NCBI RefSeq assembly: GCF_037392515.1
Contig: NC_090290.1
Coordinates: 25,875,753 to 25,939,752 of the forward strand
Length of the DNA: 64,000 bases
Source: Haliotis asinina
Taxonomy: Eukaryota; Mollusca; Gastropoda; Lepetellida; Haliotidae
Direction: 5' to 3'
Position numbers and translations under genes: made by a program. This document shows, piece after piece, positions 15,487-58,796 of this stretch. Each line of letters opens with the position of its first letter. Within the stretch, counting starts at the first letter, position 1. The notes beneath the pieces were generated by a model. The model ran no database searches, was not told where the DNA came from, and saw nothing but the letters and a program-made list of their open reading frames with translations.

Positions 15487-16995
15487 TTATCCACTGTAGT
15501 TTGGTGTTCTCCACTGTAGTTTGATATTCTCCACTGCAGTAGGGTATTGCCAACTGTAGTTTGGTATTCTCCACTGCAGTAGGGTATTGTCCACTGTAGT
15601 TTGGTATTCTCCACTGCAGTAGGGTATTATCCACTGTAGTTTGGTATTCTCCACTGCAGTAGGGTATTGCCAACTGTAGTTTGGTATTCTCCGCTGCAGT
15701 AGGGTATTGTCCACTGTAGTTTGGTATTCTCCACTGCAGTAGGGTATTATCCACTGTAGTTTGGTATTCTCCACTGCAGTAGGGTATTATCCACTGTAGT
15801 TTGGTATTCTCCACTGCAGTAGGGTATTATCCACTGTAGTTTGGTATTCTCCACTGCAGTAGGGTATTATCCACTGTAGTTTGGTATTCTCCACTGCAGT
15901 AGGGTATTATCCACTGTAGTTTGGTATTCTCCACTGCAGTAGGGTATTGCCAACTGTAGTTTGGTATTCTCCGCTGCAGTAGGGTATTGTCCACTGTAGT
16001 TTGGTATTCTCCACTGCAGTAGGGTATTATCCACTGTAGTTTGGTATTCTCCACTGCAGTAGGGTATTATCCACTGTAGTTTGGTATTCTCCACTGCAGT
16101 AGGGTATTATCCACTGTAGTTTGGTATTCTCCACTGCAGTAGGGTATTATCCACTGTAGTTTGATATTCTCCACTGCAGTAGGGTATTGTCCACTGTAGT
16201 TTGGTATTCTCCACTGCAGTAGGGTATTATCCACTGTAGTTTGGTATTCTCCACTGCAGTAGGGTATTGTCCACTGTAGTTTGATATTCTCCGCTGCAGC
16301 AGGGTATTATCCACTGTAGTTTGGTATTCTCCACTGCAGTAGGGTATTATCCACTGTAGTTTGGTATTCTCCACTGCAGTAGGGTATTGTCCACTGTAGT
16401 TTGATATTCTCCACTGCAGTAGGGTATTGCCAACTGTAGTTTGGTATTCTCCGCTGCAGTAGGGTATTATCCACTGTAGTTTGGTATTCTCCACTGCAGT
16501 AGGGTATTGTCCACTGTAGTTTGGTATTCTCCACTGCAGTAGGGTATTATCCACTGTAGTTTGGTATTCTCCACTGCAGTAGGGTATTATCCACTGTAGT
16601 TTGGTATTCTCCACTGCAGTAGGGTATTATCCACTGTAGTTTGGTATTCTCCACTGCAGTAGGGTATTATCCACTGTAGTTTGATATTCTCCACTGCAGT
16701 AGGGTATTGCCAACTGTAGTTTGGTATTCTCCGCTGCAGTAGGGTATTATCCACTGTAGTTTGATATTCTCCACTGCAGTAGGGTATTGTCCACTGTAGT
16801 TTGGTATTCTCCACTGCAGTAGGGTATTGTCCACTGTAGTTTGGTATTCTCCACTGCAGTAGGGTATTGTCCACTGTAGTTTGATATTCTCCGCTGCAGT
16901 AGGGTATTATCCACTGTAGTTTGGTATTCTCCACTGCAGTAGGGTATTATCCACTGTAGTTTGGTATTCTCCACTGCAGTAGGGTATTATCCACT
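15487..16995. repeat. 40-bp tandem array, about 38 copies, of dimeric 20-bp origin
   Basis: Exact 40-bp periodicity runs for about 1.5 kb. The two halves of the unit, 'ccactgtagtttggtattct' and 'ccactgcagtagggtattat', align with each other, so a 20-bp monomer was doubled before amplification. Variant units (those with 'ttgccaactg' followed by 'ccgctgcagt') recur 280 bp apart at 15661/15941 and 16421/16701, which suggests a higher-order repeat of seven units. Minus-strand frames of up to 155 codons are by-products: 40 is not a multiple of 3 and the unit has no stops. Confidence 0.97.
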
Positions 16996-25000: not shown

Positions 25001-25431
25001 GATCTTGTGTTACCATTACTGCAATCAGCATCCTGTACTGGAGTCAGTATCTTGTACATGGTCTAATGTTACCTTTACTGTAGTCAGCACCTTGTGTGGG
25101 ATCTTGTGTTACCAGTACTGCAGTCAATATCTTGTACATGGTCTAGTGTTACCATTACTGCAGTACACAGTCTGTATATGTTCTAAGTCCGAACAAGTCT
25201 GAACAAACCACAATATACAATCTTCGTTGAGTATTCAACAATGCAAAGGGTGCTCACAGCCATGATGGAACAAGTTAGAAGTGAAGTTGACCATGGCTCG
25301 CTACTAGTATCAGAGGAGAGACAAATGTTTCTCACCAGATTGACGAGCCTGAGTGTGGGTGAAGCAGCGAGGCTTACAGCCAAGGCACATCCAAGTACTA
25401 CAGTAAGTGTCGTCCACATATCCAGTCCCAT
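19067..25431 (-). CDS. Histidine acid phosphatase A (lysosomal/prostatic type), secreted, 11 exons
   Basis: Exons on the minus strand: 25431-25336, 23577-23479, 23390-23304, 23057-22905, 22761-22666, 22321-22232, 21961-21841, 20600-20515, 19944-19752, 19526-19431 and 19137-19067 (TAA). All have GT/AG borders and consistent phases, giving 395 residues, the usual family length. It starts with a signal peptide ([19 protein letters not shown]). The catalytic motif YRHGDRSP (34-41) and the second active-site pair in SAHDSTV (275-281) are present, as are [14 protein letters not shown] and WQPIPVH, which match lysosomal acid phosphatase. These enzymes hydrolyse phosphomonoesters through a phosphohistidine intermediate, in lysosomes or outside the cell. 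NDTS and NVSS are possible N-glycosylation sites. The CxxxC pair (GCTFQC) is kept, but the SYSSALFM segment lacks the cysteine usual there. No C-terminal membrane segment is seen, so a soluble product is likely. The last exon is the least certain: an alternative small exon at the acceptor near 19247 would end the protein after two residues. Confidence 0.92.
20833..21484. other. Segment present in copy A intron 7 but absent from copy B
   Basis: Sequences on both sides match copy B (junctions near 28248), where about 20 bp replaces about 650 bp. This is either an insertion in A or a deletion in B. It includes 'catcaaaagtttggactcac', a phrase reminiscent of transposon-derived repeats, but I found no convincing terminal repeats. 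Confidence 0.5.
22035..22231 (-). repeat. 52-bp minisatellite made from the exon 6 donor junction of copy A
   Basis: Units containing 'ctcacaatgaagtgtgtccg' start at 22083, 22135 and 22187, exactly 52 bp apart, with a degenerate unit further left. On the gene strand each reads as the last ~38 nt of exon 6 (ADTLHCE versus ADTLYCE) followed by the start of intron 6. The array directly abuts exon 6 (22232-22321). In most units the donor GT has become AT ('GAGATAGG'). Confidence 0.85.
23117..23303 (-). repeat. 34-bp minisatellite made from the exon 3 donor junction of copy A
   Basis: About five units built on 'gtgcaggtacttgtcatgtg' directly follow exon 3 (23304-23390). On the gene strand each holds the end of exon 3 (DKYLHxE) plus a donor-like 'GAGGTGGGT' or close variant. 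Copy B has the same array at 29964-30150, and copy C has a much longer one. Confidence 0.85.
23669..25186. repeat. 40-bp minisatellite in intron 1 of copy A, about 38 copies
   Basis: The unit carries 'ccattactgcagtcaacatc' and 'ctgtacaggatcttgtgtta' in a 40-bp period. Blocks of several variant units recur about 700-740 bp apart (compare 23702 with 24401, and 24291 with 25031), so the array also grew by larger duplications. Copy B has only about 15 copies at the same place. Long plus-strand open frames here are artefacts of a stop-poor repeat. Confidence 0.95.
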
Positions 25432-26485: not shown

Positions 26486-29400
26486 TTATTTGAAATATGG
26501 ATGGAGGACTTTGAGGATTGGACTTGCACGATGCCCACGCTTCCCGATAATAGTACCTACAAGATACAACATGTAAATTGAGTGGAACCCAGAACAGGTT
26601 ACATGCGAATTATTGCCATTAAGAATAACAGAGCACTGTTAGCTGGACTATTTTCAGGTACTACTTACCTATGAATGGATTAGAGCTCAAGTAGTTACGA
26701 AAGGACATAGACACCAGTGATCCTACAGTTCATGACAGATGGGAGATAGCATTGTAAGAACACCTGCAGATTTTTAACAGAGGTAACAGCACAGTTGGTG
26801 GCTGATGCACAGGACTTGGTAAGGAGGGGTTACAATGATCCCTGTTTACCTGTGTCGGAGGCAGCACACTCAGCATCCCAGTCTGTTGGAACCATGTCTT
26901 TGGTGAGAGACACAAAGTTGGTCAGCGGGCACTGGAACGTACAGCCTAGACAGGAACCGATGAATAGAGATTACGTGTGTTGTTTTTTATATGTGTTATT
27001 CGTGAAGTGCCGAGATTGGTTATTTGTGCTTGGATGAGAGGTTTTCATTGGTACAAGGGTGAGATCTGCCATTCGTGTTAGGGCAAGGGGTGTTATTGGT
27101 ACAAGGGTGAGATGTACTACTGGTATGGGAAGTAGATATGTTTGTCGTACAGAGACATGGTGAGTCGCACCTGGTAAGGTGAGTTGATGAGACTGTGTGT
27201 CATCGTTAGGGTCTGTGGAGGACACGTTCCTGTAGTGCAGCTCCACGTGGAAGGCGCCGGGCGTGGCTTCATGTAGCTCCATGAACAATGCTGAGCTGTA
27301 GGGTGGGATCATGTTATTGTAGAGCTTCAGCGCAGTCAGTACCGACACTACGGTGGAGTCATGCTAAGCAAAAGGAACATGTATCAACATAAATCTGCAA
27401 CGGACACGTGTGTGTAATGAAAAACACAAAGACGTCATTATTGTCAGACATTGCAACTGAATCGTCAAAGGCCATGACCAAATGTGCTGGGACATTTTGT
27501 AGCGGGAGCTAAACGACTGGTACCTTGTGTGCCAACGTATATTATTGACTAAATCTATGTATCGTTTTGTATTTATGTAATTATGTGTCTCTGATTAAGT
27601 GCGAGTTTTCTTTTCAAAAGAAGTATTACTTCACATTTCCATCTGGCTGTTCACTGAACTTAAGTAGAAGAACTATTTGTTAACCTGACGCTGACATATG
27701 ATGATCCAAAGTTACCTATTTAGAGTAAGAAGCACGAGGAACGAATGTATCTCATAACAACACTGAGGAAATATTCAGTCAGTCGGATGAAATGACTGAA
27801 GCGTGTACCATCGTTCTGTCGATCATGTGGTTTAATGGGCAACTAGTGAAAAGCGCATGAAATATCTTCAGAAGAATACTACACACTTTAGCAGAACATT
27901 CCAGAAGAAGTGTGGCTACCTATGTCTACTCACAGCAGAGAACATATTCATCTTGGTGGTGATGGCTTTTGACGCGACTTTCTGTTGAGCCAGTTCTATC
28001 CACTTCTTCAGTAGAGGACCTAAAAGACAAAACTCTTGCAATGTCTAGGACTAGATGGGTGACTGCACGTATCTCGAGAAATGGTATGAGATTGCAGAAA
28101 GAATCTCATACTAAAGACACAGAGCCATTCAGCATTCCCAAACACACTACCAGAAGGGATAGTCTTGAACGACAGGATGAACAGTTCCCGTGATGCCACA
28201 GTGCACTGTGCACCTCGACAAGTCTAGCGTAAGTGACATAGGTGATGACTATATGGACAATTATGTGAAAATTATGTGCATGTGAAGAGCTGCGTTTTGG
28301 TGTGAAGTTCTGATAAGAATTCACAAATTTTCACTGAGTTTCATCATTTTTGAACTCATGACAATAATATTTGCAACGTTACGAATTTGTGTTTCAGTAC
28401 ACCAGTTCATGTGTAAACAGTACATTTAATCAGTATGGAATACTTTGCAAAATCTAGTTTAAAACAGTTGCCTGAAGTAAGTGGTTAGATTTACACAGAA
28501 CCTTTCGAGGTTTAGTATATGTCAAGCGGGGGGTGGTTGCATAAGAGATATTCTGCCATCCCCCAGTTGTTTAATTTGCTGCAGATTAACTCAGGCCCGT
28601 GCTTTGCTGACTCTTGTGCCAAGAAAGTCCTATCGCTGAGGAGACGTGCTGACCGAATCAAAACTAGGCATCACCTCCTTTCAAACGACCCACGTTGTCA
28701 TGGAACAGAAGATCGAAGGCGATTTGTTCGAGGTCTCTGAGTTTAGCATAGGAAGTATCGTTAACCCATGCTGGCCAAGCAATATTGTGCACTTTCTGAA
28801 AATTCGATATTATTATCATTATAACAAAAGGTATAGCAAACGGATACATCAACGATAATACAAAATTTACAAAAAGATATAAAATATCACATAAACATTG
28901 CACTCAATCCGAATAATTTTTTTTTCAGATGAAGCGTGTCGGATAGTTGTAGAACGCCATGAAGTGTGATCTATCTCACAATGAAGTGTGTCCGCTATTT
29001 GCAGAACATCATGCACTGAGACCTATCGCACAATGAAGTGTGTCCGCTGTTTGCAGACATCTGTATCCTACCTCGCAATACAGTGTGTCTGCTACAGGCA
29101 ACACGTCGCGCACGTTGAATGATTTGAAACCTGATTCTCTGCTCAGGAACTGCAAGAAATCCTGAAACAAGAAATAAATATATCCACATAATCGAAAGGT
29201 ATTCTCTATTATTAGAGCCCGAGAAAACAATATTCGTCTCAACGCTGATAGGCATACATCTATTTATTCTTCTCTTAGGACGCGAGAGAAGAAAATGTGT
29301 CTCAGTGTTGTTTGTCAGACATGTATTCTCCCCAAAGAACTCGGTAGAAGATAATTTACCTCAGTGGTGATCGTCAGACATATATCTATTCCCCTTCAAG

Positions 29401-31376
29401 GAAAGCTGATAGTCATATATCTTTTCTCTTGTTTGGGACAAAGAGACGATAAGTCGTTCCAATGTAATGTGATGGAAAGATGGAACCTTTTGGGCTCTGA
29501 GAAAACGTGTACCTGGTTTTCAGCCAATAGCTGCTTAATGCGGTTGGATGCCAAGTTTGCAGCCTCGATTTGGTCGTATTTCTTGCAGGGTTTCTGCATG
29601 GCCAGCATCTGCAATGCAAACATAAATTCTAGTGTTATGAAGTACTTTATTCACTTCCCATGGTCCACAGACTTCTGGTTAGAAGTGTGTTTCATACAGC
29701 CATTTTATTTAGTGTATGGGTTTACATGGTACAGGTGACAGTGTTATTTACGTTATCCTCCACTTCAGGTCTGGTGTGGACGGGGATTGGCTGCCAGGGT
29801 ATATTGCTGTTCCACACTTGGTATCCACTTGGAGGGTACAGACCAGCCAGGTTGGAGTAGGCAGACATCAGGCACCTGTCCACGTCTGAACTCTCCACGC
29901 GGATCTGAAATACATCCAAGTGATTCGATTCATCTCAGGAGAAGGATTTATTGAAGAAAAAGTACCTCTTGCCATACGTCCACCTCTCTGTGCAGGTACT
30001 TGTCATGTGTCACCCACCTCTGTGTGCAGGTACTTGTCATGTGTCCATCTCTGTATGCAGGTACTTGTCATGTGTCCTCCATCCCTGTGTGCAGGTAAAC
30101 GTCATGTATCACCCACCTCTGTGAGCAGGTACATGTATTGTGGCACCTACCTCTCTGTGCAGATACTTGTCGCTGAGAAATCCCGAGTAGCGTCGACGGA
30201 TAAATCTCCCAAGAGAGTAGTGCTGTTGCATTCCTTCCTGAAAGCCAGTTTACATATTAATGTAGTTTCAAGAATAAAATGTATGGCCATTATACAAGAC
30301 AAGGTATGCTTGAGATGGGACGTACCGTGGTGAGCCATCCTAGTCCCTGAGGCCAGTACTTGTCGATGGAGTTGGGGTTGTTGGGGTATGTCCGATAGGG
30401 GCTGCGGTCCCCATGTCGATATACCTAGGTTAAAAGAGAATTGAATACACGAATTGTACAATGTATTATGTTCTTCATCTTTAAGTTCATTCAACACCCA
30501 GATACACGTGAAGTGATACCATTACTGCAGTCAACATCTTGTACATGGTGTAGCGTTACCATTGCTGCACTCAACATCCTGTACATGGTCTAGGGATACC
30601 ATTACTGCAGTGCACATCCTGTATATGGTCTAGTGTTACCATTACAGCAGCCAACATCCTGTACAGGATCTTGTGTTACCATTACTGTAGTCAATATCTT
30701 GTACATGGTCTAGTGTTACCATTACTGCAGTCAACATCTTGTGCGGGATCTTGTGTTATCATTACTGCAGTCAATATCTTCTACATGGTCTTAGTGTTAC
30801 CATTACTGTAGTCAATATCTTGTACATGGTCTAGTGTTACCATTACTGCAGTCAACATCTTGTGCGGGATCTTGTGTTATCATTACTGCAGTCAATATCT
30901 TGTACATGGTCTTAGTGTTACCATTACTGTAGTCAATATCTTGTACATGGCCTAGTGTTACCAATACTGCAGTACACAGTCTGTATATGTTCTAGTGTTA
31001 CCATTGCTGCAGTGAACAAAAATTGTACAGGATCTGGTATTACCATTACAGCAGTCAACATCTTGTACAGGATCTAGTGTTATCATTGCTGCTCTCAACA
31101 TCCTGTAATTGGTCTTGTGATATTATCCGAAGTCCGAACAAGTCTGAACAAACCACAATATACAATCTTCGTTGAGTATTCAACAATGCAAAGGGTGCTC
31201 ACAGCCATGATGGAACAAGTTAGAAGTGAAGTTGACCATGGCTCGCTACTAGTATCAGAGGAGAGACAAATGTTTCTCACCAGATTGACGAGCCTGAGTG
31301 TGGGTGAAGCAGCGAGGCTTACAGCCAAGGCACATCCAAGTACTACAGTAAGTGTCGTCCACATATCCAGTCCCAT
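26486..31376 (-). CDS. Histidine acid phosphatase B, near-identical duplicate of A, 11 exons
   Basis: Exons on the minus strand: 31376-31281, 30424-30326, 30237-30151, 29904-29752, 29608-29513, 29161-29072, 28795-28675, 28019-27934, 27363-27171, 26945-26850 and 26556-26486 (TAA). Exon lengths equal those of A, so 395 residues are predicted. The signal peptide, RHGDRSP and SAHDSTV are unchanged. I noticed only a handful of amino-acid differences: IAFDLL for IGFDLL in exon 7, and in exon 9 MIPPYSS for MIPSYSS, ELHYRN for ELYYRN, and DTQSHQ for DTQPHQ. No disabling change was seen, so both copies appear expressible and may add dosage. The same reservation about the last exon applies as for copy A. 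Confidence 0.92.
28930..29071 (-). repeat. 52-bp exon 6 junction minisatellite, copy B (shorter)
   Basis: About 2.5 units of the same exon 6-derived repeat as in copy A, again abutting exon 6 (29072-29161). The unit number differs from A, so the array has changed since the duplication. Confidence 0.8.
29964..30150 (-). repeat. 34-bp exon 3 junction minisatellite, copy B
   Basis: Same structure and apparently the same unit number as in copy A, directly after exon 3 (30151-30237). It predates the A/B duplication. Confidence 0.82.
30518..31125. repeat. 40-bp minisatellite in intron 1 of copy B, about 15 copies
   Basis: Same family as 23669-25186 but only about 0.6 kb long. Some unit orders are locally duplicated, for example the pair at about 30691-30790 and 30810-30910. 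This is the largest single length difference between copies A and B. Confidence 0.93.
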
Positions 31377-37466: not shown

Positions 37467-37558
37467 CATCCTCGATATCTCCAGGGTATACGTTCCGATA
37501 AGTCTTAGTGGAGACTTATCGGAACGTATACCCTGGAGATATCGAGATATCGAGGATG
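37467..37558. mobile_element. 92-bp MITE consisting only of its inverted repeats, with perfect 9-bp target duplication
   Basis: It starts CATCCTCGATATCTCC and ends as its inverted complement. The arms are 38 and 46 bp, the right one with an extra 8-bp 'gatatctc' duplication, and the loop is only 8 bp. The 9-bp flanks 'ggtccactc' at 37458-37466 and 37559-37567 are identical. The arms match the ends of the 510-bp element at 42514-43023. A 9-bp duplication and long inverted repeats fit Mutator-like (MULE) elements. Confidence 0.88.
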
Positions 37559-38451: not shown

Positions 38452-41400
38452 CTGTACTTGACGCTGCGCATTCAGCAACCCAGTCGGTAGGAACTATGTC
38501 TTTCGTGAGAGACACAAACTTGCTCAGTGGACACTTGGTCGAACAACCTGGAAACGTAGATATTTGATCATTATAGATTCGGATACACAATTTGTCATGA
38601 TCATTCCTGTTCTGGTGATGACGTTTGAGCTTCTTGACTCTCATATTCAAAACCACCTGCAAGTTTTATACTCACAATGTCTCTCGTGTCATTGGGCCTC
38701 ATGGCAATGAGCTTTTATGAGACTATGGTATTTTCTGTAATGCTGAGTTAGTAAGGAGTCGCACCTGGTAATGTGAGTTGATGAGGCTGTGTGTCATCGT
38801 TAGGGTCTATGGAGGACACATTCCTGTAGTGCAGCTCCACGTGGAAGGCGCCGGGTGTGGCTTCATGCAGCTCCATGAGAAGGGTGGCTGTGTACGGTGG
38901 AGGAAGGTTGTTACCCACCCGGAGAGCGCACAGTACCGACATCACCGTGGTGTCATGCTGCAGACACAGAGCTAATGTAGCCAACTAATTGCAATCTACT
39001 GTCAGTATTTATGTCAGTACAATTACTATGTCCATTCTTTACAGTTTCAACAAACAGTTAAAGTAAAATTTGTGTTTATGTGAGTGATGTCACCTACTCA
39101 CTAGACCCGCAGTGAGGTGTAGCAGTGGTACCTAGCCTTCTTGAATGATCTAGAGCTATCATCATGATCCCCACGTGTAAACTACAAGCAGTTGATGGTC
39201 AGATTATGGAAAGATGTAGCAAGTATACCAACAGCGGAGAACATGTTCATCTTGGTGGTGTAGGCGCTGGAGCTGACTCTCTGCTGTGTCTTTTGGATCC
39301 ATCTTTTCACCATTACCCCTACAACAGTAAACCATTACACCAAGAACAGTCAACCGTTACACCAAGAACAGTCAACCATTATACCTAGAACAGTGAACCA
39401 TTACACCAAGAACAGTCAACCATTACACCTAGAACAGTGAATCGTTACACCAAGAACAGTCAACTATTACACCTAGAACAGTCAACCATTACACTTAGAA
39501 CAGTGAATCGTTACACCAAGAACAGTCAACTATTAAACCAAGAACAGTGAACCGTTACACCTAGAACAGTGAACCGTTACACCTAGAACAGTGAACCGGT
39601 ACACCTAGAACAGTGAATCGTTACGCCTACAACAGGGAAACGTTACACCTAAAACACTGGACCGTTATACTTACATCAGTGGACCGTTTACACTTCATCA
39701 TTACGCCTAGAATAGCGAACTGTTATGTCTACAACAGCGAACCGTTACACCTAGAACAGTGAACCCATATACATGAACCTGCAACAATGAACCGTTGCAT
39801 TTCACTATTACACCTTGAACAGTAAACCTATTTACCATTACACCAAGAATAGCGAGCAGTTGGCAGACTGACAGACAGATATACAAAATACTACTCGTAC
39901 CATACTGACTCAGCAGACCCGTGAAGATCCAGTTAGAATTGGTCTTCAGTAACCCACGCTTGTCCTAAAGAGACGCCTAACAGGATCGGGTGCTCAGGCT
40001 CGTTGACTTGGTTGCCACAAGTCATCGTATCCCGATTCAACATCTCATTCCTTGCAGACTGAACTAATTGTGCCTCGGAAACCTTTCGTCCTGACAGGGT
40101 ACACATTACTTCCCCTCTTTCTATTAGTGATCTTGGCAAACTGTCCACAAAAGAGACAGTTCTCTCTATAGAGGAATTTAGGCTGACTGACGCACGTTGA
40201 GCAAGATCATGGTTGATGTTGTGAGGATTGCAACATTTGCGTCGGTATTCCTTGTAGCCTATTTTCACAACTTCTTGGTAATTTGTTTCCCCCTTGCAGA
40301 TGATGCAGTGATCCATTATCTGAACGATTGTCATGATGTTGATCACTGGATTATCTGGTCCAGACTCGAATACTTACATATCGCCGCCACATGGCTGGAA
40401 TATAGCTGAGTGCCTCTTAAACCAACCAAGCAGTTACAGAAAACCTCAAGCTGTGTCTACTTGTAGTACAGTGCAGTTGTATTGTCAGGATTAGTAGCTT
40501 CTTTAGAGAAGTGTTATCGGATGTTGACATTTAGATTTGTTTGTTGGGTAGGTTGTCCAAATATTTACTTCTAAGGTGGTCATGACGAGAAAAAAGAAAC
40601 GCATTGTCAATTATATTTAGATCCAACTACTCACAAGTTTTTGATTTTCTACACACGATTCTGTGTTCGCCAACTTTAAACACAAGTCTAGTAGATCTGC
40701 ATATACACTGTGCTAGTTCAATTCTGATTCCAAACTTAACAATTCTTAAACACCGAAATATGTAAACTAGTACATGTCCACACTCTCCATACCCCAAGAC
40801 ACTCAATGTACAATATTTAATGTAAGGTCATCTTTGCATAACATAGAGGCAACTGTTTAATTGCTCTGAATTCAAAATATATTCCACCATGTTAGCACAC
40901 AGTAAACATCACACTGTGCATATTTGCACCATGTTGCCTCACAGTAAACATCACGCTGTCTATATATTTACACCACGTTGCCACACAGAAAACATCACAC
41001 TGTCTATATATTTACACCACGTTGCCACAAAGTAAACATCACACTGTGTATATTTACACCATTTTTGCCACACAGTGAATATCATACTGTGCATATTTCC
41101 ACCATTTTGCTACACAGTAAACATCACACTGTGTATATTTCCACCATTTTGCCACATTGTGAATATCACACTGTGTATATTTCCACCATTTTGCCACACA
41201 ATGAATATCACACTGTGTCTATTTCCACCATGTTGTCACGCAGTTAACATCACACTGTATGTTTCCACCATTCTGTCACAATGAACATCACACTGTGTCT
41301 ATTTCCGCCATGGTGGCACACAGTAAACATTATACTGTGTGTATTTTCGCCATGTTGGCACAACGTAAACAACACACCAGCACTGTATCTATTCTACAGA

Positions 41401-44400
41401 TAAACAGGAACAACAGATACCGCATCTTTGTCTCGACACACAGAAACCTACCTCCTTTCAGCCGGCCCACTCCTTTGTCGATGTACTCGAGATCCATGTT
41501 TAGTGCTTCTAATTCCCTCAGTTTCTGGAAAATGGCTTCATTCACCCACGGGGCCCAAGTCACGTTGTGGGTTTTCTGGATAAAACAGTACCCCTTTCTT
41601 GGATGAAACCAAATGCAATCATTACGTCTTCAATCAAGTCAAGCCATCGTTTCCATTGCATGTATACTTGTAGACAAATACCTGTGAGTGAGTGAGTGAG
41701 TGAGTGAGTGAGTGAGTATGACTTTAGGCCGCACTTAGCAATATTCCAGCTATTCACCACAGGCCCCGACCCAATCACAGAAAAGGTTATCGGCCACCAT
41801 AGGCCCATGTCTAATTTTACCTCACAGAACAGGTTCTCGGCCATCACAGGCCCATGCCTAATTTTACCTCACAGAAAAGGTTCTCGGCCACCCTTGGCCC
41901 ATATCTAATTTTACCTCACAGAACAGGTTCTCGGCCACCACAGGCCCCGGTCCTATCTAACCTCACAGAATAGGTTATCGGCCTCCACAGGCCCATATCT
42001 AATTTTACCTCACAGAACAGGTTATCAACCACCACAGGTCCATATCTAATCTTAAGTCACAGAACAGGTTCTCGGCCACCACTTACCCATGTCTAATCTT
42101 ACCTCACAGACCAGGTTGTCAGCCACCACAGGCCCGTATCTTATCTACCTCACAGAACAGGTTATCGGCCACCACAGGCCCATACCCAATCTTACATCAC
42201 AGACCATGTTATCGGCCACCACAGGCCCATACCCAATCTTACATCACAGACCATGTTATCGGCCACCACAGGCCCGTGTCGAATCTTACCTCACAGAACA
42301 GGTTATCAGCCACCACAGACACATGTCGTAGTGTGAATGGAACATACCCCGTCTCTCGTGTTAGGAATGTGAAAAGATCCTAGAAATAAAAAAACCCAAA
42401 CAATTATACACTATTCAAAAAGGAAACGGATGTAGCTTCGGCAAAATCAACACCAAAACAACCACCAACAACCAATACTTCAGCACCAAAACGCGGCAAT
42501 GTCACCTTTCCCCCATCCTCGATATCTCCAGGGTCTACGTTCCGAAAAGTCTCCACTATACCCTGGATGCATCTACGGCTCAGCCCGATATATTTATTAC
42601 CTCCCTTGGCTGGCTTTTTATCCAATCAGGTGCCTACGCTGGGAATTTGAGCGAACCAATCACAACTCACTTTCGCTTTTTAAATTCTCTAACCGATTAA
42701 ACTTGGCAAACAAACCATGCGTAGGTTCTTTGAAAGTATTAGATGAATTTCTTGCATATGTTTTAAAAAAGGTTTCGGACCTCTAAAGTTGCATGTATGA
42801 TTTCCCCAAATTGTGAGTCGCACGGCGAGCAAACCTTCGCAGTTGCAACTGCTACCTTTGTTGACACTTGCAAATTCGGTTATAACGGCGAGCACTCTGA
42901 CTGGCTACTGTGAGAAAGCGGAGTCAGCAAAGGGAGGTAATAAAATTATCGGGCCGACCCGTAGATGCGTCCAGGGTATAGTGGAGACTTTTCGGAACGT
43001 AGACCCTGGAGATATCGAGGATGCCTTTCCCCATGCTTTAGGTGCGTTTGAAGAGTTGAGTTCCGTTGGGTTTTACGTCATATCGGTCCAGTCCTATAGT
43101 GAAGAGGTCAAGTTTGTATCAATTACCATTTTTAGTGCACGGTCCAAAAGAGTTTGACTTTCATTACACAGCCATTTTTAAAACAGAAGATACTGTAACA
43201 TCGAATACAAAAGCAAGCAATTTGTTATTTTCCCTATGAAACTACAATTTATGATATAGGTCAACTTCCATCAGTAAATTTACGATCAGGTGCCCGCTCA
43301 CATGGGAAAACGGATTCAGATTTCTCGCAACATAATGGGAGTTCCTTGCAGTTCAAAAGTCCCCACAGTCAAGTCAAAATAACACCTCGTTGCAGGAGAT
43401 ACACATGGGACGTCCATTATTCTCCCTTTTCAGCAGCTAGGCATGGGTAAAACGGCCATGGCCAATACGGCATCGTCGTAAAACTGCTTCATCACGTCTT
43501 GACTGACAACCCAAGTAGGTATAGTCAATTGTTGGATTCAGTTCATTAAGTTTATTTCTTCCTACCTGGGTGTCACACCTTTCTTGCATGAGGTCAAGAG
43601 AGGTAAGTATAACTTTTGATAGTGGGCTTGAAGTCACTGTACGGTATCAGTAGTGGAGATAAGGGCTTGTTTTAGCTGCTTTAGATGCGGCATCGGCCTT
43701 TGTGTTACCTGCCATGCCGACGTGACCCGGCAGCCAGCAGAGGGCGATGTCACACTGGCCAGTAGAAGATCGTAGTAAAGTTCTAGAATGTCCAGGATAA
43801 TAGACTGACTTGAAGTAACATTTTGAAGTGCAGACAGGATTATGAATCTGTAAAAATGATTATTTTTTTTTAATAGCTCTGGTGTTTTATATAGGTCAAA
43901 GCTGTGAAGATAGGTTTGGCCTCGGCGGTAATTGTCTGGGGTTTCCATGTGATGGAATCAGGCTTGGCACGTTAGGAAATAAGTTTTCGCATAGAGGGTT
44001 CAAGACACAGTTGTATGCAGGATTGGACTCATATGAACGCATTTTAGTGATATATTGCAGTGCAAGTTTAATACGTCGTTGTGCGATGGAAGGTTCTTTA
44101 GCCTCCGCGTCCAGACTGTCTATCGGAAAGGTCCTAAAGGCTCCTAGGGCCTAATGCCTTAATGGTGGTTAGATTTTTTCTAAATTGCTTGTGCAGGTTC
44201 CACCATAGAGAATGGAGCTGTAATCTAGTTTAGTGAGAACCAAAGATCTGTACAGGTGAAGGAGGGTAGTCTGATCCCCTCCCCATTCTGTATTTGAAAC
44301 GACTTTTAGTAAGTCAAGGGCCTTTAAGCACTTTTCAGATATACTATGTGTGGTAAGAATGTCAAGTGACGATCGATCGATCGATTGATTCCCAGGAATT

Positions 44401-47400
44401 TGGCCTCTTGATAGGCGTACCATCTAAAAATAGGTTTTGATCTTTGTGAGGTTTGCATTTATGGTAGAAGTCAATGCAGTTTATTTTGGATTTTGAGAAC
44501 TTAAAGCTATTTTCATTGGCCTATATTTTCATTTGGTTAAGACACAGTTTGAGCTGCCTTTCTATTGCATGCATATGCTTACCACGGCATGAAATATTGA
44601 AATCATCCACGAAAAGGGACTCATTCAACTATTCAAAACTTTAGTGAGGCTGTTAATTTTGATGCTGGATGACAAACGGAATGTTGCCTTGAGGGACGCC
44701 CTTGTCTTGGAAATAGTCAGGCAAAGTAGACGCCCCATCCGTACTTGAAATGGCCTGTCGTTTAAGAACTGGGATGTGAACTGGGGTATCCTGCTCCTTA
44801 ATCCAAATTTGAAGAAGTATTCACCAAAGCGTCATCAAGAAAACATGCAATGCAAAATGCACGTGAGGAAAAGCATAGCGGTATAGATCACTTCAGAATA
44901 AATTATTTTTTGCCGGAAAAGAAGAAATCATAAAGCCACGCCAAGTGCTGCAAATAAGAAACATCGCCACGGGCCGCCTCAAAGTTGGGGACTCGCAGTC
45001 TGCAGTTGCCCGACATTTCAACGTTCACCATAATAAGGTTCCTTCGGACAAAGCTCGCCTGAAAAGCGGCATTTCAACAGTTACCACCCAAGCCCAGGAC
45101 CGCTACATCCGGGTTTCTCATATACGTCATCAACAACATATCCCTGGTTTGAGAAGAATTTCCGACAAAACCGTCAGGAATCGATTTAATGAAGTGGAGA
45201 TTCCAGTGGAGAAAACCAGCTGCGGCTCCTGTTTAGAGAGACTTCCGGAACTGGAACCTTAGAAACTGAAGCTGAGTCTGGTTCAGTGATAAATCACGAT
45301 TTGTTTTTCATGGGCGAGAAGAAAGAGAGCGTTCTTGTCGTCGGTGAAATTAATATTTTTCCCGTACGTGCATTCGACAGGCCGACAGATTCAGTGGGGC
45401 AGTGCCATGGTGTGGGTGAGATATCCAGCACACAAGGATCTGATTTAGTAGAAGTTCAGGAAAACTGACCGCACATCAGTACATCAACGAGGTCTTTGCA
45501 AGTCTCATGCTTCCGATTGTGGACCTACGGAGGAAACTTTTCCAGTATGACAACGCTACTTCATGCGTTACGGTCCGTTACCTTGCCAATTCTAACGTCA
45601 GTCTCATGCCATGACCTTCCCCACCCCCAGATCTAAACCCATAGAGCACCTATGGGATGAACTCAGTCGACGTGTACATCGAAGTCAAAACACATCGCAT
45701 TTTAGGAAGAGTGAGGGAAGAATTCCGTAAGTCTGTGCCGAGACGGTGCCGAGCAGTAATTGCTGTCAATTGCTGATACTGACATTGAGGCCATCTTGTT
45801 TAGTCAAGTGAAAAGAAACACAAAAATAAAGGCTGTTGTATTTTCATCTTTTTAATCACTGAAATAACTTGCAAACTAAAGCAAAAACTTCTTTCTTGTC
45901 TCATGTTTTATATCCCTGGGACCTGGCATCTGTACCGTACCGTTTTAATGCCCAAACTCACCTGGTTCTGTTTCGCCTCCTGCACTGCCCGCTTCGACTG
46001 GAAGATAGACGTCTTTAGCTGGTCATACCTCGGACAGTCCCTCCTCATGGCCAGCATCTGAAACAGCCGGTCGGGTGCGTGGAATCGGTTATTACTAGAC
46101 TAAAATATGACGTCTCTTAATCGTGATATCTTCACGACAATTTATTCACACTATAAAAGTTAGTTGATTAGGTAACAATTGAAACGTGTGACAGCTGACT
46201 GTCCTCGAACATGCATACATTGTCCTCCTCCACTGGTCTGGTGTGGACGGGGATGGGCTGCCAGGGGATATTGCTGTTCCACACTTGGTCTCCACTTGGA
46301 GGGTACAGACCAGCCAGGTTGGAGTAGGCAGACATCAGGCACCTGTCCACGTCTGAACTCTCCACGCGGATCTGAAACACCGAAGGGTGATTCGATTCAT
46401 CTGAGGGGAAAGATTTCTTGAAGTAAAAATACCTCTTGCCATGTGTCACCCATTTCTGTGTGCAGGTACTTGTTATATGTCATCCACCTCTATGTGTACG
46501 TACTTGTCATGTGTCACCCATTTCTGCGTGCAGGTACTTGTCATGTGTCACCCATTTCTGTGTGCAGGTACTTGTTATGTGTCACCCATTTCTGTGTGCA
46601 GGTACTTGTCATGTGTCACCCATTTCTGTGTGCCGGTACTTGTCATGTGTCACCCATTTCTGTGTGCCGGTACTTGTCATGTGTCACCCATTTCTGTGTG
46701 CAGGTACTTGTCATGTGTCACCCATTTCTGTGTGCCGGTACTTGTTATGTGTCACCCATTTCTGTGTGCCGGTACTTGTCATGTGTCACCCATTTCTGTG
46801 TGCAGGTACTTGTCATATGTCACCCATTTCTGTGTGCAGGTACTTGTTATATGTCACCCATTTCTGTGTGCAGGTACTTGTTATCTGTCACCCATTTCTG
46901 TGTGCCGGTACTTGTCATGTGTCACCCATTTCTGTGTGCAGGTACTTGTCATGTGTCACCCATTTCTGTGTGCAGGTACTTGTCATATGTCACCCATTTC
47001 TGTGTGCGGGTACTTGTTATGTGTCACCCATTTCTGTGTGCAGGTACTTGTCATGTGTCACCCATTTCTGTGTGCCGGTACTTGTTATGTGTCACCCATT
47101 GCTGTGTGCAGGTACTTGTCAAGTGTCACCCATTTCTGTGTGCAGGTACTTGTCATGTGTCACCCATTTCTGTGTGCAGGTACTTGTCATGTGTCACCCA
47201 TTTCTGTGTGCCGGTACTTGTCATGTGTCACCCATTTCTGTGTGCCGGTACTTGTCATGTGTCACCCATTTCTGTGTGCAGGTACTTGTCTGTCATGTGT
47301 CACCCATTTCTGTGTGCCGGTACTTGTCTGTCATGTGTCACCCATTTCTGTGTGCCGGTACTTGTCATGTGTCACCCATTTCTGTGTGCAGGTACTTGTC

Positions 47401-49979
47401 ATGTGTCACCCATTTCTGTGTGCCGGTACTTGTCATGTGTCACCCATTTCTGTGTGCAGGTACTTGTCATGTGTCACCCATTTCTGTGTGCCGGTACTTG
47501 TCATGTGTCACCCACCTCTTTGTGAAGGTACTTGTCATGTGTCACCCATCTCTGTGTGAAGGTGCGTGTCATGTGTCACCCATCTCTGTATGCATGTACT
47601 TGTCATGTGTCACCCACCTCTATGTGCCGGTACTTGTCATGTGTCACCCACGTCTGTGTGAAGGTACTTGTCATGTGTCACCGACGTCTGTGTGAAGGTA
47701 CTTGTCATGTGTCACCCATCTCTGTGTGCAGGTACTTGTCGAGTGTCACCCACCTCTTTCTCCAGGTATTCCTCACTGAGAAAACCTGTATAACGCCGGC
47801 GGAGGAAACGTCCAAGAGAGTACTGCTGCTCTTCTCCTGTCTGAAACATGACACAGTTATCACGGGTGCTTTTCACGTATTCCAAGCCTTTGATTGTTGC
47901 TGTGTTGGTTGTATTAGCTTAAATCGCGGTTGACTAGGGTCACAGTGAACGAGTCTGTATTTTCTTGAAATGGGACCACAGGATTATGTTTCAGTTCCAG
48001 ATGTTGCAATTTTGTCATGTACACGCAAGCGCCAGTATACACTATGATGAACTACATATGATGAACTACAGATATCATCGTTATCAATTTATTATCAAAA
48101 TTTAAGAAATATCTGTCTCTACATTTGTTAAAAATAATTCAACATACTATCTATCTGATGGATAATGATCCGAACAACGAAATTGCGATAATGATATCCT
48201 ATACACGTGAATAGCTAATTCTGCCAAATGTTATTCAACAGCATAACGATTTTACACTACTTCTAGAGACAAACTAGAGAAATTACCAAGTGCATCAGAA
48301 TATCAATATCACCTTTGCCTAAGATTTAATTTAAACTTCCTTTTGTTTTCCACACACTGAGTTTCCTATTTCCTATCACATCGAAATAATAACCGTCTCA
48401 TATTTCTTGCCCATCAATTCACTCCTCTTTCAGCGAGATTATATTGATACAAATAGAGATCCTCAAGAATATAAATATCACTCTGAAATAATCATTCTAT
48501 CCGATAGTTCATAATTTTGACCTAATGACTGACTGTAAAGGCCGAGGTTCAAACCTACACAGACGAGGTGTGGTCTCCTTGCCTTGTCAAAGCTGTCTTT
48601 CGATGCAAAACAATGCAGTATTCAAGTGCATTCCATGAAATATTACTAAAAAGGACATCGGTTCATGGTGAAATTAAGCCATAGTGTATGAAGGCTCACT
48701 GTGAAATGTGTGGATGTAGGCAACCTGCAAAACATACATTTTGTAAATTCAGATTAGAATTTCCCACTGCTTCAGTCAGGTGGCCAGAGGAAGGGCAATT
48801 CCATAGAAACAAAGAAACAATTGTAGCCTATGGGTTGGTTAGAGTTTCAATGACGGTTTCAAGTTGTGCACGGTAAGGGGTGCACGCTTGACTGATGTTG
48901 ACATCACCATGATGAAGGTTAGTTTCAAATTAAAGTAAAACTTGAAATTACATGCAGACTAATCAAATTAATTTAAATAATTTATCAAAATATGTAAAGA
49001 AAGGATCATTTATTATAAGGCACATGCATATGTTCATGCTAGTAACGTCCATGGTTAACTTTTGACATCGCCAGGCTGTTAGTCGTTACAGTACCGTCAC
49101 TCATGGGCAGATAACTTCTACACTGCTGGGGAGTAGCCAGCAGAAGACTAATTTGGAGGTTTGCACCCTGGATTTGAAGCAAAAATCTTCCCCATAAGCC
49201 TCTAGCCACAATTTTATGAACACTTCTTTCAAATGGAAGATCATTTTACAAAACACGTCATGAATATTCATTATATTAGGAGAGGGATGGATGTCCCATA
49301 TTTCAGACCCATGAAACAAACTAGATAGAATTCTTACATAAGAAATATCTGTCAGGTAAGTTATCAGAATTGCGCATTCGTTGTTTTAACAACCTTCCAA
49401 GCTTGTAGGGACTTTCTTACCATGCACCTGTACTAGATAGGTGAACCCCCACTACTTATACGTAGGTACAATCTCTGTTGAACTAAACTGTTCATACTTT
49501 CTCAACCTGCCACCTTTACGAAATACAGTGACTTTTGTTTATCCAAATTCATCTGACTCACAGTGGTCAGCCAGCCATATCCATCAGGCCAAACGTCCTT
49601 CAAGTTGTTGGGGTTGCTCGGATACGTTGCGTATGGACTGCGGTCACCATGGCGATATATCTGAATTTAAGGGCTTAATTTCACAGTCAAACTCTAACAT
49701 TTCTTGAATCCAGTGAAACATGTTTGTATATAGAACGATCATGGCTGAGGTTAAGGTGATACTTATTGAGGTTAGGTATATACCAATCAAACCTACACTG
49801 CACAGGCACAATGTTACATACAATATATATTAATTGACCGGTTATTTAAAACCGGTGACGCCCTGTACTGAATGGAGGATTCTTACCAGGTTGACGAGTC
49901 TCAGTGTGTCCGGGGCCGTGGACACGACACAGCACCACCCACACACAAACGCTGCAGCACCCAGCACATCAGTCCACAT
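38452..49979 (-). CDS. Histidine acid phosphatase C, divergent paralogue, 10 recognised exons
   Basis: Exons on the minus strand: 49979-49887, 49660-49562, 47840-47754, 46371-46219, 46057-45962, 42379-42290, 41575-41452, 39318-39233, 38957-38765 and 38547-38452. Phases equal those of A and B, and lengths are equal except exon 1 (one codon shorter) and exon 7 (one codon longer). The product begins with a signal peptide (MWTDVLGAAAFVCGW) and has YRHGDRSP (33-40) and SAHDTTV (275-281). It ends with GCSTKCPLSKFVSLTKD. The terminal exon is not settled (see 36427-36470). The exon 8 donor (GCT|gttggt) is weaker than the others. As in A and B, PPYTATLLM lacks the cysteine usual at this place. Exons 5 to 7 differ greatly from A/B, while exon 4 and the second half of exon 9 are almost identical to them. 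Introns are large and carry arrays, MITEs, LINEs and a Tc1 remnant. Confidence 0.9.
39319..39850 (-). repeat. 22-bp minisatellite made from the exon 8 acceptor junction of copy C
   Basis: Units such as 'cattacacctagaacagtga' repeat every 22 bp for about 530 bp, starting exactly at the 5' edge of exon 8 (39233-39318). On the gene strand the true junction is 'ctgttgtag|GGGTAATGG', and units read 'ctgttctag|GTGTAATGG' or the AG-less 'gttcttggtgtaatgg'. The unit therefore spans a 3' splice site. Decay increases towards 39850. Confidence 0.85.
39915..40412 (+). mobile_element. SINE split by a ~290-bp insertion
   Basis: Left part 39915-40037 has 'gtgaagatccagttag' and 'gtcatcgtatccc'. The right part from about 40331 continues 'gttgatcactggattatctg' and ends with the SINE core 'catggctggaatatagctga'. 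The left part pairs with the SINE at 10823-11012. The inserted stretch (about 40038-40330) has a minus-strand coding relic beginning DHCIICKGETNYQEVVKIG, which I cannot name. Confidence 0.65.
40885..41360. repeat. About 41-bp minisatellite in intron 7 of copy C
   Basis: Repeats of 'acagtaaacatcacactgtg' with 'tatttccaccattttgccac' at about 41 bp, roughly 11 units, with small length variation. Unlike the neighbouring arrays it does not abut an exon, and I see no exon sequence in its unit. Confidence 0.85.
41677..41765 (-). mobile_element. SINE 3' end with (CACT)n tail, minus strand
   Basis: On the minus strand it reads 'gaatagctggaatattgc', 'aagtgcggcctaaagtc' and then about eight ACTC units. 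This is the tail type shared with 51649-51790. It marks the outer edge of the exon 6 array of copy C. Confidence 0.75.
41750..42289 (-). repeat. 47-bp minisatellite made from the exon 6 donor junction of copy C, with many intact donors
   Basis: About twelve 47-bp units ('cctcacagaacaggttatcg' to 'gcccatatctaattt') abut exon 6 (42290-42379). On the gene strand a unit holds the last ~24 nt of exon 6 (GCCGATAACCTGTTCTGTGAG-like, split here as VADNLFCE) plus about 20 nt of intron. The real donor is GAG|gtaaga. Around seven units keep GAG|gt with gtaaga, gtaaaa, gtagat or gttaga after it. Others read GATGTAAG or have lost the site. Confidence 0.9.
42514..43023. mobile_element. 510-bp MITE with long inverted repeats and perfect 9-bp target duplication (MULE-like)
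   Basis: It begins CATCCTCGATATCTCCAGGG and ends as its inverted complement, with inverted repeats of roughly 100 bp that extend to 'ataaatatatcggg'/'cccgataattttattacctc'-like sequence. Flanking 9-bp repeats 'cctttcccc' lie at 42505-42513 and 43024-43032. The centre (about 42620-42910) is non-coding. It sits in intron 5 of acid phosphatase C. The terminal sequence is shared with the 92-bp element at 37467-37558. Confidence 0.88.
43033..43436. other. Intron 5 of copy C between MITE and LINE
   Basis: No coding or repeat structure is recognised in this stretch of about 400 bp. Confidence 0.5.
43437..44830 (-). mobile_element. LINE fragment with reverse transcriptase and RNase H (I-group), decayed
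   Basis: In minus-strand order: DKGVPQGN near 44685, the catalytic FVDDFNISCRGKHM box near 44620, then TLLHLYRSLVLTKLDYSSIL (about 44240), a linker with LGAFRTFPIDSLDAEAKEPS (about 44130), and an RNase H-like CWLPGHVGMAGNTKADAA near 43715. Further downstream is ARIGHTHLTH-like 'RCRIGHGRFTHA'. Several frame changes and stops separate these pieces, so it is dead and 5' truncated. An RNase H after the reverse transcriptase points to the I-group of LINEs. It lies in intron 5 of copy C, in sense with that gene. The Tc1 remnant follows at its upstream edge. Confidence 0.8.
44900..45870 (+). mobile_element. Decayed Tc1-family transposase remnant
   Basis: A frame at 44945-45262 reads IATGRLKVGDSQSAVARHFN (helix-turn-helix) and IPGLRRISDKTVRNRF, both typical of Tc1 transposases. 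Later pieces in other frames give GSDLVEVQEN (about 45430-45470) and, near 45635, a THRAPMG...-like remnant of the IEHLWDELGRR region. Multiple stops and frame changes are present, so the copy is inactive. I could not pair the terminal repeats. It lies in intron 5 of copy C. Confidence 0.8.
46446..47753 (-). repeat. 34-bp minisatellite made from the exon 3 donor junction of copy C, about 38 copies
   Basis: Very regular 34-bp units ('cccatttctgtgtgcaggta' plus 'cttgtcatgtgtca') fill 1.3 kb and directly abut exon 3 (47754-47840). On the gene strand each unit reads as exon 3 end (DKYLHTE) followed by intron sequence (GGGTGACACAT). In the bulk of the array the donor has become 'GAAATGGGT'; only the units closest to exon 3 keep GAGGTGGGT-like or GAGATGGGT sequences, so the array is more uniform away from the exon. 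The long plus-strand open frames (to 419 codons, in all three frames) are artefacts. Confidence 0.93.
47841..49100. other. Intron 2 of copy C, unrecognised part
   Basis: No exon is recognised. A small plus-strand frame at 48688-48876 (MKAHCEMCGCRQPAKH...) has no likeness I can name and looks incidental. Confidence 0.45.
49101..49555 (-). mobile_element. LINE fragment, same family as 53078-54760 and 58990-62535
   Basis: Minus-strand pieces FRKGGRLRKYE (about 49525) and HGSEIWDI (about 49305) correspond to FFRNGGKLRTNE and YASEIWGY in the plus-strand copy at 61380-61660. The rest is shortened and frame-broken. It ends a few bases from the exon 2 donor of acid phosphatase C. Confidence 0.6.
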
Positions 49980-56749: not shown

Positions 56750-57652
56750 TCATTTTAAAACAGGTTGTCTTTGTCGTATCCTACGCCCTAAAATGTCGCA
56801 CACATGCTCAATTGGATTCACGTCAGGGCTTCGTGCAGGCCAGGGTAATGTTGTAATGGCTTCCTGACGAAGATAATCGCGAACCAGGGCAGATCTGTGA
56901 GGTCTAGCGTTATCATCCATAAAAACAGGCCTTGTACGGAGAGGATGGTTGTCAAAGTGTGGAACATAGACCTGTTGCAAGATGTCTCTTTGATACTTAA
57001 CGCCATTGAGGTTCCCCCTTACAGTCACCAGTGGCAGTTTGCAATCGTAGGAGAAACATCCCCATACCATCAAAGATCCACCGCCGAATAGGACCTGTTC
57101 CATAATGTTCCTCTGTGTGTAAGCGGTGCCTCTCCGTCGCCAAACACGGGTTCTGCCACCTGTCATGAAGAGTAAAAACCTACTTTCATCGGACCAATGG
57201 ACCTTTCTCCACGATGCCAAGTTCCAGTTCCTGTGGTCCCTACACCAGCCCAGACGATCAGCTTCGTGAGCAGCTGTCAGCAGCGGACGTTTAAGAGGCC
57301 GTCTAGCACGAAGACCTGCTGCTTGCAGTCGATTCCGGACGGTTCTGTCGGAAATTCGTCGATTGGGCAGCCATTCTCAGTTTAAAACATTACTCTGCGC
57401 AAAAGGATTTCGCCGCACATGCCTCAGAAGGGCCCTGTCTTCCCTGTAAGAAGTGCATCGAGGTTTGCCCGAACGCCTTCTGTCCTTCACATCATTAGTT
57501 TCCCGATGCTTTTTCAAAATGCGGCTGATGGTTGATGGATGATGACCAATTTGAACACCAATTTGGCGCAGTGACATACCGGCGTTCCTCATTCCGATTG
57601 TTTTTTCCCCACCAGGTAGAGACAGGTGCTTGCCACCAATGAGGACAATCAT
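56750..57652 (-). pseudogene. Tc1 transposase, one stop
   Basis: It reads through helix-turn-helix segments (GMSLRQIGVQIGHHPSTISR, then ISDRTVRNRLQAAGLRARRP) into the DD34E catalytic domain: VHWSDESRFLL, FMDDNARPHRS, and NPIEHV with exactly 34 residues between the second D and E. A single TGA follows NVLN near 57378-57380; the rest of the roughly 300-codon frame is open. The reading frame begins MIVLIGGKHLSLPGGEK, a little divergent from the family start. All three catalytic residues are present, so it was active recently. Confidence 0.88.
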
Positions 57653-57746
57653 TTAGTGAATCATAAACACAAGAACTACAAACGTACTAATAGTTTTATC
57701 TCAACTACAGCTCTTTTGGTAAACCTACCCTCTGAAATCATCAGAA

Positions 57747-58796
57747 ATGGACAAAACTGAATACAGGGCAGTCATCAAGTACTTGCAAAAGAAAGGGATG
57801 TCCCCAACACAGATACATGCTGAGATGGTCTCCACTCTAGGGGATGATGCTCCTTCATTTTCCACAGTAAAGAAGTGGGCTGCAGAATTTAAGCATGGCA
57901 GACAAAGCCTTGATGATGACCCACGCTCAGGAAGGCCTTCAACAGCAACCACTCCAGAAAACATCACGAGAGTGCTCGATATGTTGATGGATGATCGACG
58001 ATTGACTACTCGACATATTGCTAGTGTAGTGGGCATCTCTCATGAGAGGGTTGAGCATATTATCACCAACGAATTAGGAATGACTAAAGTGTCTGCAAGA
58101 TGGGTGCCAAAGCTCTTGACAGCAGAACAGAAACGTGTCAGGTTCCAGGGGTCCCTTGACAATTTGCGTCGTTTTGAAGCAGATCCCGATGATTTTGTGG
58201 CATGATTTGTAACCAAGGATGAGACCTGGATACATCACTTTCAACCAGAAACAAAACTACAGTCAAAACAGTGGAAGCATCCTGATTCACCAGCTCCGAA
58301 GAAAGCCAAGTCTGTTCCTTCAGCTGGAAAGGTGATGGCATCAGTCTTTTGGGATTCCAGGGGTATTCTGCTCATTGATTATCTTGAAAAAGGTCAAACT
58401 ATTAACGGCAGATACTATGCTGATCTACTGAACCAGTTGCGAGAAGCAATCAAATCCAAACGACGAGGGATGATCGCTAAAGGTGTCCTCTTCCACCAAG
58501 ACAATGCGCCTGTTCACAAATCGGTGGTGGCCATGTCAACAATCCGCGATTGTGGCTTTGAACTCATTGACCATCCTCCTTATTCACCTTATTTAGCTCC
58601 TTCTGACTTCCACCTGTTCGCCAAAATGAAAAAGGAACTCTCCGGTCGTCATTTTGCAAGTAATGATGACGTCATTTCCGCTGTGACTGATTTTTTTAGG
58701 GTAGCTGAAGAAGATTTCTTCCTGACCGGGATTCGGGCCTTGCAGCATCGCTGGCAAAAGTGTGTGAACTTGGAAGGGGACTATGTAGAAAAATAA
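57747..58796 (+). pseudogene. mariner transposase (DD34D), one stop
   Basis: A 349-codon frame starts MDKTEYRAVIKYLQKKGMSP and has DDPRSGRPST, then the catalytic motifs VTKDETWIHHF (D158), HQDNAPVH (D252) and LAPSDFHLF (D287). The spacing of 34 residues between the last two defines the DD34D mariner family. The only break is a TGA at 58203-58205 where the family has arginine (VARFVTKDE), a likely CGA to TGA change. The right terminal repeat ends at about 58861 ('gccaaccctcg' then TA). I could not recognise the matching left repeat before the ATG, so the left end may be damaged. Confidence 0.92.

Follow-up and report, generated by a model that had tools for sequence, protein, structure and literature searches.

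Minisatellites built from exon–intron junctions in three acid phosphatase genes of the abalone Haliotis asinina

Tandemly repeated exon–intron boundaries in other genes

The closest described counterparts of the repeats reported here are the “mirages” of amphioxus, which are minisatellite-like tandem duplications of exon–intron boundaries found in Adh3 and in the globin genes BflGb6 and BflGb9 (PMC3087553), and also in PGBD5 and the gene for troponin C (PMC3902484). In the available text of these reports, mirage units measure 10–72 bp in Adh3 and 150–160 bp in the globins (PMC3087553), the host gene is correctly spliced and arrays are polymorphic in length. Mirages are discussed there as possibly a general feature of lancelets and as a possible route to new introns.

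We analyzed a window of 64,000 nucleotides of the Haliotis asinina genome in which three acid phosphatase genes carry arrays of this kind. An earlier, sequence-only reading of this DNA had taken the repeated conversion of splice junctions into minisatellites to be a recurrent phenomenon and knew of no description of it. The idea of an undescribed phenomenon cannot be upheld, as the amphioxus mirages are of the same kind (PMC3087553, PMC3902484, as far as the available portions of both describe them), and the abalone arrays are a further, unusually seeding-rich example of mirages rather than a new phenomenon. As in mirages, on the same portions, a tandem unit lies across the exon–intron boundary, donors and acceptors are both affected, and many units, not all, keep the AG or GT. 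The unit lengths (22, 34, 47, and 52 bp) fall within the range given for mirages in the text available (PMC3087553). What differs is that about four seedings occurred in one gene family and that one array was moved by gene conversion. Copy number can be compared here between paralogs of one sequence only: the exon 6 array has 3.5 copies in gene A and 2.5 in gene B, and the exon 3 array is equal in the two.

Two other known situations are relevant. The minisatellite of the human gene 6-16/IFI6 (Turri et al. 1995) has units that offer several splice donors (PMC4526556). In IFI6, as described in the accessible part of that work, downstream units are used as donors and yield isoforms, whereas in the abalone genes most units outside intron 6 of gene C have lost the donor, with the exception of 3/5 in intron 3 of gene A. 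Intron gain by tandem duplication has been described, in the text available, for vertebrate ATP2A1, a potato RdRp gene and 24-bp repeats in fission yeast (PMC4974935). These cases likewise involve tandem duplication over splice signals, and the potato duplication crosses an intron–exon boundary (PMC4974935); in contrast, no new intron was formed in the abalone genes, where A and C share their intron positions and the growth affected introns already present. In the open-licence literature searched, we found no junction array from a mollusc. The available portions of two reports describe a 27-bp intronic minisatellite of abalone, with no stated link to a junction (PMC6905558), and tandem repeats in intron 1 of an earthworm metallothionein gene, not placed on a junction (PMC12783039). 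About four seedings within one gene family of another animal, a gastropod, suggest that the process is wider than lancelets.

Acid phosphatase genes and their arrays

The three genes, here called A, B, and C, all lie on the minus strand. Open frames with GT/AG flanks define exons 2–10 of A, exons 2–7 of B, and exons 3–10 of C, while exon 2 of C and exons 8–10 of B were supplied by tblastn and their flanks checked afterwards. Among PDB sequences, gene A matched prostatic acid phosphatase from rat (E = 9.4e-81) and human (E = 6.5e-80), and gene C matched the Pfam family His_Phos_2 (E = 1.3e-26). Genes A and B are a recent duplication, with 91.7–95.1% identity in the three largest collinear blastn pieces that start outside the intron 1 array. 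Exon positions and lengths are equal in A and C except for exon 7, which differs by 3 bases (121 versus 124). Over six exons, A and C differ at 92 of 369 first and second codon positions and at 103 of 185 third positions, and this lower rate of change at the first two positions indicates that the genes have been under coding constraint. The exons on which the following analyses bear most directly are:

47754–47840, minus strand: gene C exon 3, open frame with GT/AG flanks
46219–46371, minus strand: gene C exon 4, identical to A at 144/153 positions, in one conversion tract with the intron 3 array
45962–46057, minus strand: gene C exon 5, open frame with GT/AG flanks
42290–42379, minus strand: gene C exon 6, open frame with GT/AG flanks
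41452–41575, minus strand: gene C exon 7, open frame with GT/AG flanks
39233–39318, minus strand: gene C exon 8, open frame with GT/AG flanks
23304–23390, minus strand: gene A exon 3, in agreement with the 34-bp unit at 19/21 positions of its edge
22232–22321, minus strand: gene A exon 6, open frame with GT/AG flanks

Inside the genes there are six minisatellite families in the TRF output, located in intron 1, intron 3, intron 6 (two kinds), and intron 7 (two). Their arrays are as follows:

46435–47753, minus strand: gene C intron 3, 34-bp junction minisatellite from the exon 3 donor, 38 units found
23133–23303, minus strand: gene A intron 3, 34-bp junction minisatellite, 5 units found
29980–30150, minus strand: gene B intron 3, 34-bp junction minisatellite, common to A through the A/B duplication
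41775–42289, minus strand: gene C intron 6, 47-bp junction minisatellite from the exon 6 donor, 11 units found
22038–22231, minus strand: gene A intron 6, 52-bp junction minisatellite, copy adjoining the exon 45 bp long
28929–29071, minus strand: gene B intron 6, 52-bp junction minisatellite, 2.5 TRF copies
39319–39850, minus strand: gene C intron 7, 22-bp junction minisatellite that runs up to the acceptor of exon 8, distal end decayed and far limit approximate
23666–25164, minus strand: gene A intron 1, 40-bp minisatellite located 88 bp away from exon 2, without any match to an exon edge that outscores shuffles
40877–41377, minus strand: gene C intron 7, 42-bp minisatellite located 74 bp away from exon 7, without any match to an exon edge that outscores shuffles

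A total of 55 junction windows (19 in A, 18 in B, and 18 in C) were searched for copies in the next 250 nt, and a junction was accepted when no shuffle scored as well and z exceeded 4. Seven passed, namely the exon 3 donor and the exon 6 donor of all three genes and the exon 8 acceptor of C, and the remaining 48/55 passed no threshold. The seven are the same set that the sequence-only reading had singled out by noting arrays at exons 3, 6, and 8 of C and exons 3 and 6 of A and B, and its remark that donors and an acceptor are both involved holds for the exon 3 and 6 donors and the exon 8 acceptor.

When read in gene orientation and broken at the period, 4/6 of the intragenic TRF minisatellites continue into an exon without a change of phase. 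The 34-bp unit covers the donor of exon 3 with approximately 21 bases of exon and 13 of intron. At the exon 6 donor, the 52-bp unit of A and B is made up of 42 exon and 10 intron bases and the 47-bp unit of C of 38 and 9, and at the exon 8 acceptor of C the 22-bp unit takes 12 bases from the intron and 10 from the exon; each of these limits may be off by about one base. In fixed register, the exon 3 edge matched its unit at 19/21 positions in A (P = 3.5e-9) and 15/21 in C (P = 4.5e-5), the exon 6 edge at 32/42 in A (P = 1.3e-10) and 34/38 in C (P = 3.3e-15), and the exon 8 edge of C at 9/10 (P = 7.9e-5). The earlier claim that each unit holds the exon edge together with its splice site is confirmed. 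The TRF bounds enter exon 3 of A by 21 bases and end 1 base short of it in C, enter exon 6 of C by 29 bases and end 14 bases short in A, and enter exon 8 of C by 10 bases.

In a register-free control, all exon edges were searched and 200 shuffled units served as background. The exon 6 units (scores 20 and 30) beat every shuffle (maxima 16), and the exon 3 units (17 and 16) exceeded the shuffled 95% points (14 and 13) but not the shuffle maxima (17). The 10 exon bases at exon 8 scored 8 against a shuffled 95% point of 12 and, register free, were not above shuffles. The support for exon 8 comes from its array, which continues in phase into the exon.

Exons are touched neither by the 40-bp array of intron 1 in A and B nor by the 42-bp one of intron 7 in C. 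A junction origin was sought for these two, for a 40-bp array at 15490 and for a 65-bp array at 3129, and none scored above the shuffled 95% point; the 65-bp array, which lies far from the phosphatase genes, scored 13 against a 95% point of 13. The four were taken from the minisatellites of the window, which also include an array at 1609–2208 and short arrays. The intron 1 array differs strongly in length between the recent duplicates, with 33.9 TRF copies in A (23666–25164) and 15.1 in B (30512–31119), while the intron 3 arrays of A and B have equal length and an equal TRF consensus.

Further junction copies were looked for in several ways. The own-intron score exceeded that of at least 15 of 16 other introns at six junctions, which are the exon 2, 8, and 9 donors in A and, in C, the exon 4 and 9 donors and the exon 7 acceptor; no convincing decayed junction copies were found at these six. 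The match of the A exon 2 donor was rejected: it is the exon 3 edge itself, as the 250-nt target overruns the short intron. At the A exon 9 donor (19752) there is a possible single decayed copy approximately 33 nt into intron 9 (score 12.5). A tile scan at z > 6 marked 48/99 tiles in A and 66/233 in C, which correspond to the arrays and two faint clusters in A. The latter are duplications in introns 5 and 9 (near 22402–22442 and 19607–19647) that are absent from the TRF list, and a blastn-short self-search recovered neither of them.

Seeding at exons 3, 6, and 8

The junction arrays probably arose on four separate occasions. The sequence-only reading had noted exon 3 arrays both in A/B and in C; as separate events these are not supported, and our results indicate one origin followed by gene conversion. 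All 38/38 units in intron 3 of C are closer to the exon 3 edge of A than to that of C over the 21 exon columns. Exon 4 is identical in A and C at 144/153 positions (94%), in comparison to 359/554 (65%) over exons 2, 3, 5, 6, 8, and 10 (P = 7e-15), which individually are 54–76% identical without gaps; exon 7 was omitted for its length difference and exon 9 was treated apart. Both ends of intron 3 can be aligned between A and C (z of 24 and 28), whereas the other 16 of the 18 intron flanks have z of at most 2.7. Given that the units of C are nearer to the edge of A and that the similar tract continues through exon 4, exon 3 was not seeded twice, and separate seedings in A/B and C were ruled out. 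On sequence comparison, the intron 3 array and exon 4 represent one gene conversion tract between an A/B-type gene and C, and its direction is most likely from A/B to C. The exon 4 pair in the tract is at 46219–46371 in C and 22905–23057 in A.

Two observations run the other way. The exon 3 tree, which is poorly resolved, places the exon of C beside one C unit with support of 0.77, which counts against conversion. Over the 13 intron columns, the edge of C is nearer to the C units than is the edge of A (10.0 versus 8.9 matches), a comparison that carries the caveat that those columns at the edge of C are its own first array copy.

Exon 9 is also very alike in A and C (C 38765–38957, A 19752–19944), with an identity of 0.89 when aligned and 154/193 ungapped (P = 1e-4), and its intron flanks are not alike. 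This likeness is perhaps a second conversion tract.

Exon 6 presents a different picture. In the tree, the exon edges and units of A and B form one group with support of 1.0, and the exon of C sits on a zero-length branch between that group and the C units; in the underlying alignment, the 45-bp copies of both A and B fall out of register over their first columns. There are 16 columns at which the exon 6 edges of A and C differ. At these, the A units agree with A at 11 and with C at 1, and the C units agree with C at 14 and with A at 0. At two columns both unit consensuses agree and match neither exon, one of these being a three-way tie among the A units and the other real. Over its first 80 nt, which include the array, intron 6 has no similarity between A and C (z of −0.1). 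As the units group with their own exon edge and the breakpoints differ (42 + 10 versus 38 + 9 bases), the exon 6 donor was probably seeded twice, once in A/B and once in C, unless conversion from exon to array mimics this grouping. The sequence-only reading had likewise proposed at least two seedings at this junction. With one junction, two seedings, and units that diverge from the exon to different degrees, exon 6 offers a natural series for following the silencing of duplicated splice sites.

Exon 8 of C represents one seeding. Among its exon-proximal units, 9/16 keep the AG (the decayed distal ones among approximately 25 slices were left out). The predicted exon 8 AG is preceded by many array AGs. 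The array also separates the exon-proximal AG from any native pyrimidine tract further upstream, and so may not be harmless.

Chance, tolerance, and rival origins

The reading we favor, and consider likely, is that these are boundary minisatellites of the mirage type, in which chance duplications straddling a junction were tolerated and then expanded and decayed as intron. Slippage or break repair would have produced a short tandem duplication that happened to straddle a junction. The copy nearest the exon body would keep the exon edge and splice site, leaving the other copies as simply intron, and most duplications within exons would be selected against. Growth then took place within the intron, from approximately 2.5 to 38 copies, with many units losing the splice dinucleotide, as the unit structure shows. 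With the caveats given above, such seeding occurred about four times, once at the donor of exon 3, separately in A/B and in C at the donor of exon 6, and in C at the acceptor of exon 8, with the exon 3 array and exon 4 swapped between an A/B-type gene and C. In this account the arrays need no function.

How often junctions would be struck by chance was estimated by dropping a unit of each size randomly on the gene, with the arrays removed and wholly exonic placements excluded. Under this null, 2–20% of random units straddle a junction. The probability of at least 4/6 junction-derived arrays is 9e-4, or 4e-3 for at least 3/5 when exon 6 is counted once; with the two faint duplications counted as non-junction, the values become 6e-3 (4/8) and 0.02 (3/7). 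These post hoc values overstate the case, as the locus was picked for its striking look. The intron part of all four units is 9–13 nt long, in comparison to an exon part of 10–42 nt (P = 0.007–0.011 under even placement, noticed post hoc). A splice donor depends on roughly the first six bases of the intron. This need leads one to expect a lower bound on the intron part and not an upper one, and the narrow range is not predicted by a filter of tolerance, against which it counts.

The sequence-only reading had proposed a local process acting repeatedly at exon–intron boundaries. A junction-specific duplicating process, in which for example nascent-RNA hybrids or a paused polymerase lead to breaks or slippage with a breakpoint approximately 9–13 nt into the intron, seems unlikely to us, although part of the evidence speaks for it: 4/6 arrays lie at junctions, the intron parts are narrowly distributed (P of approximately 0.01), and such arrays recur in several amphioxus genes. 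These statistics are post hoc and come from one locus, the excess falls to 4/8 once the faint duplications are included, the exon-side breakpoints are spread over 10–42 nt, and 48/55 junction windows pass no threshold. A special process is not required, because 2–20% of random units straddle a junction, and the 4/8 count slightly favors ordinary duplication and tolerance. A broader version would have tandem duplication strike the junctions of some animal genes preferentially, with an intronic breakpoint at approximately 9–13 nt, so that boundary minisatellites arise repeatedly in unrelated phyla and, where they exist, promote gene conversion between paralogs, as with the intron 3 array and exon 4; this is a speculation that we likewise consider unlikely. 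Slightly less probable still is a single ancestral array behind the exon 6 arrays of A/B and of C, each of which would have been homogenized with its own exon by gene conversion. The shared junction and the closeness of the periods (45 and 52 in A versus 47 in C), the conversion between paralogs at exon 4 and the one unit column shared against both exons would fit such a history, whereas the differing breakpoints, the grouping of units with their own exon and the dissimilar start of intron 6 would not.

It is very unlikely, judging from the units themselves, that the arrays were kept for a function, either as banks of alternative splice sites like that of human 6-16 (IFI6) or as splicing regulators. 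The exon 6 units of C would suit such a role best, as GT is kept in 9/11 and GTAA in 7/11, but their GT columns (0.82 and 0.91) are no more conserved than the rest. GT is kept in only 5/38 units in intron 3 of C, in 3/5 in intron 3 of A, and in 0/3 in intron 6 of A. None of the unit lengths (34, 47, 52, and 22) is a multiple of 3, and translation continued beyond exons 3 and 6, in both A and C, runs into a stop codon in 4/4 cases. The array copies therefore do not have the appearance of maintained splice sites. We give hardly any credence to the exons having acquired pieces of a pre-existing repeat or to the arrays being assembly artefacts. The window offers no support for either: A and C agree in exon positions and frames, each array has its own unit and diverged copies, and a search of the window for junction units elsewhere, or for a dispersed source repeat, yielded nothing beyond 11–15-nt matches. 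The sequence-only reading had named an origin of the exons from a dispersed repeat as what would overturn it. The agreement of exon positions and the alignment of the A exon 3 edge with mammalian protein support instead its claim that the units derive from exon edges.

Features resembling mobile elements were also observed in the window. Intron 5 of C contains a terminal-inverted-repeat structure at 42514–43023 with 102-nt arms (93%), and a perfect 35-nt foldback at 37471–37546 has letters that by eye resemble the ends of that structure. A retrotransposon-like frame with RVT_1 and endonuclease domains lies at 6675–9335 (plus strand), and two transposase-like frames (Tc3/DDE_3; HTH of Mos1) are located at 56750–57376 (minus strand) and 57723–58205 (plus strand).
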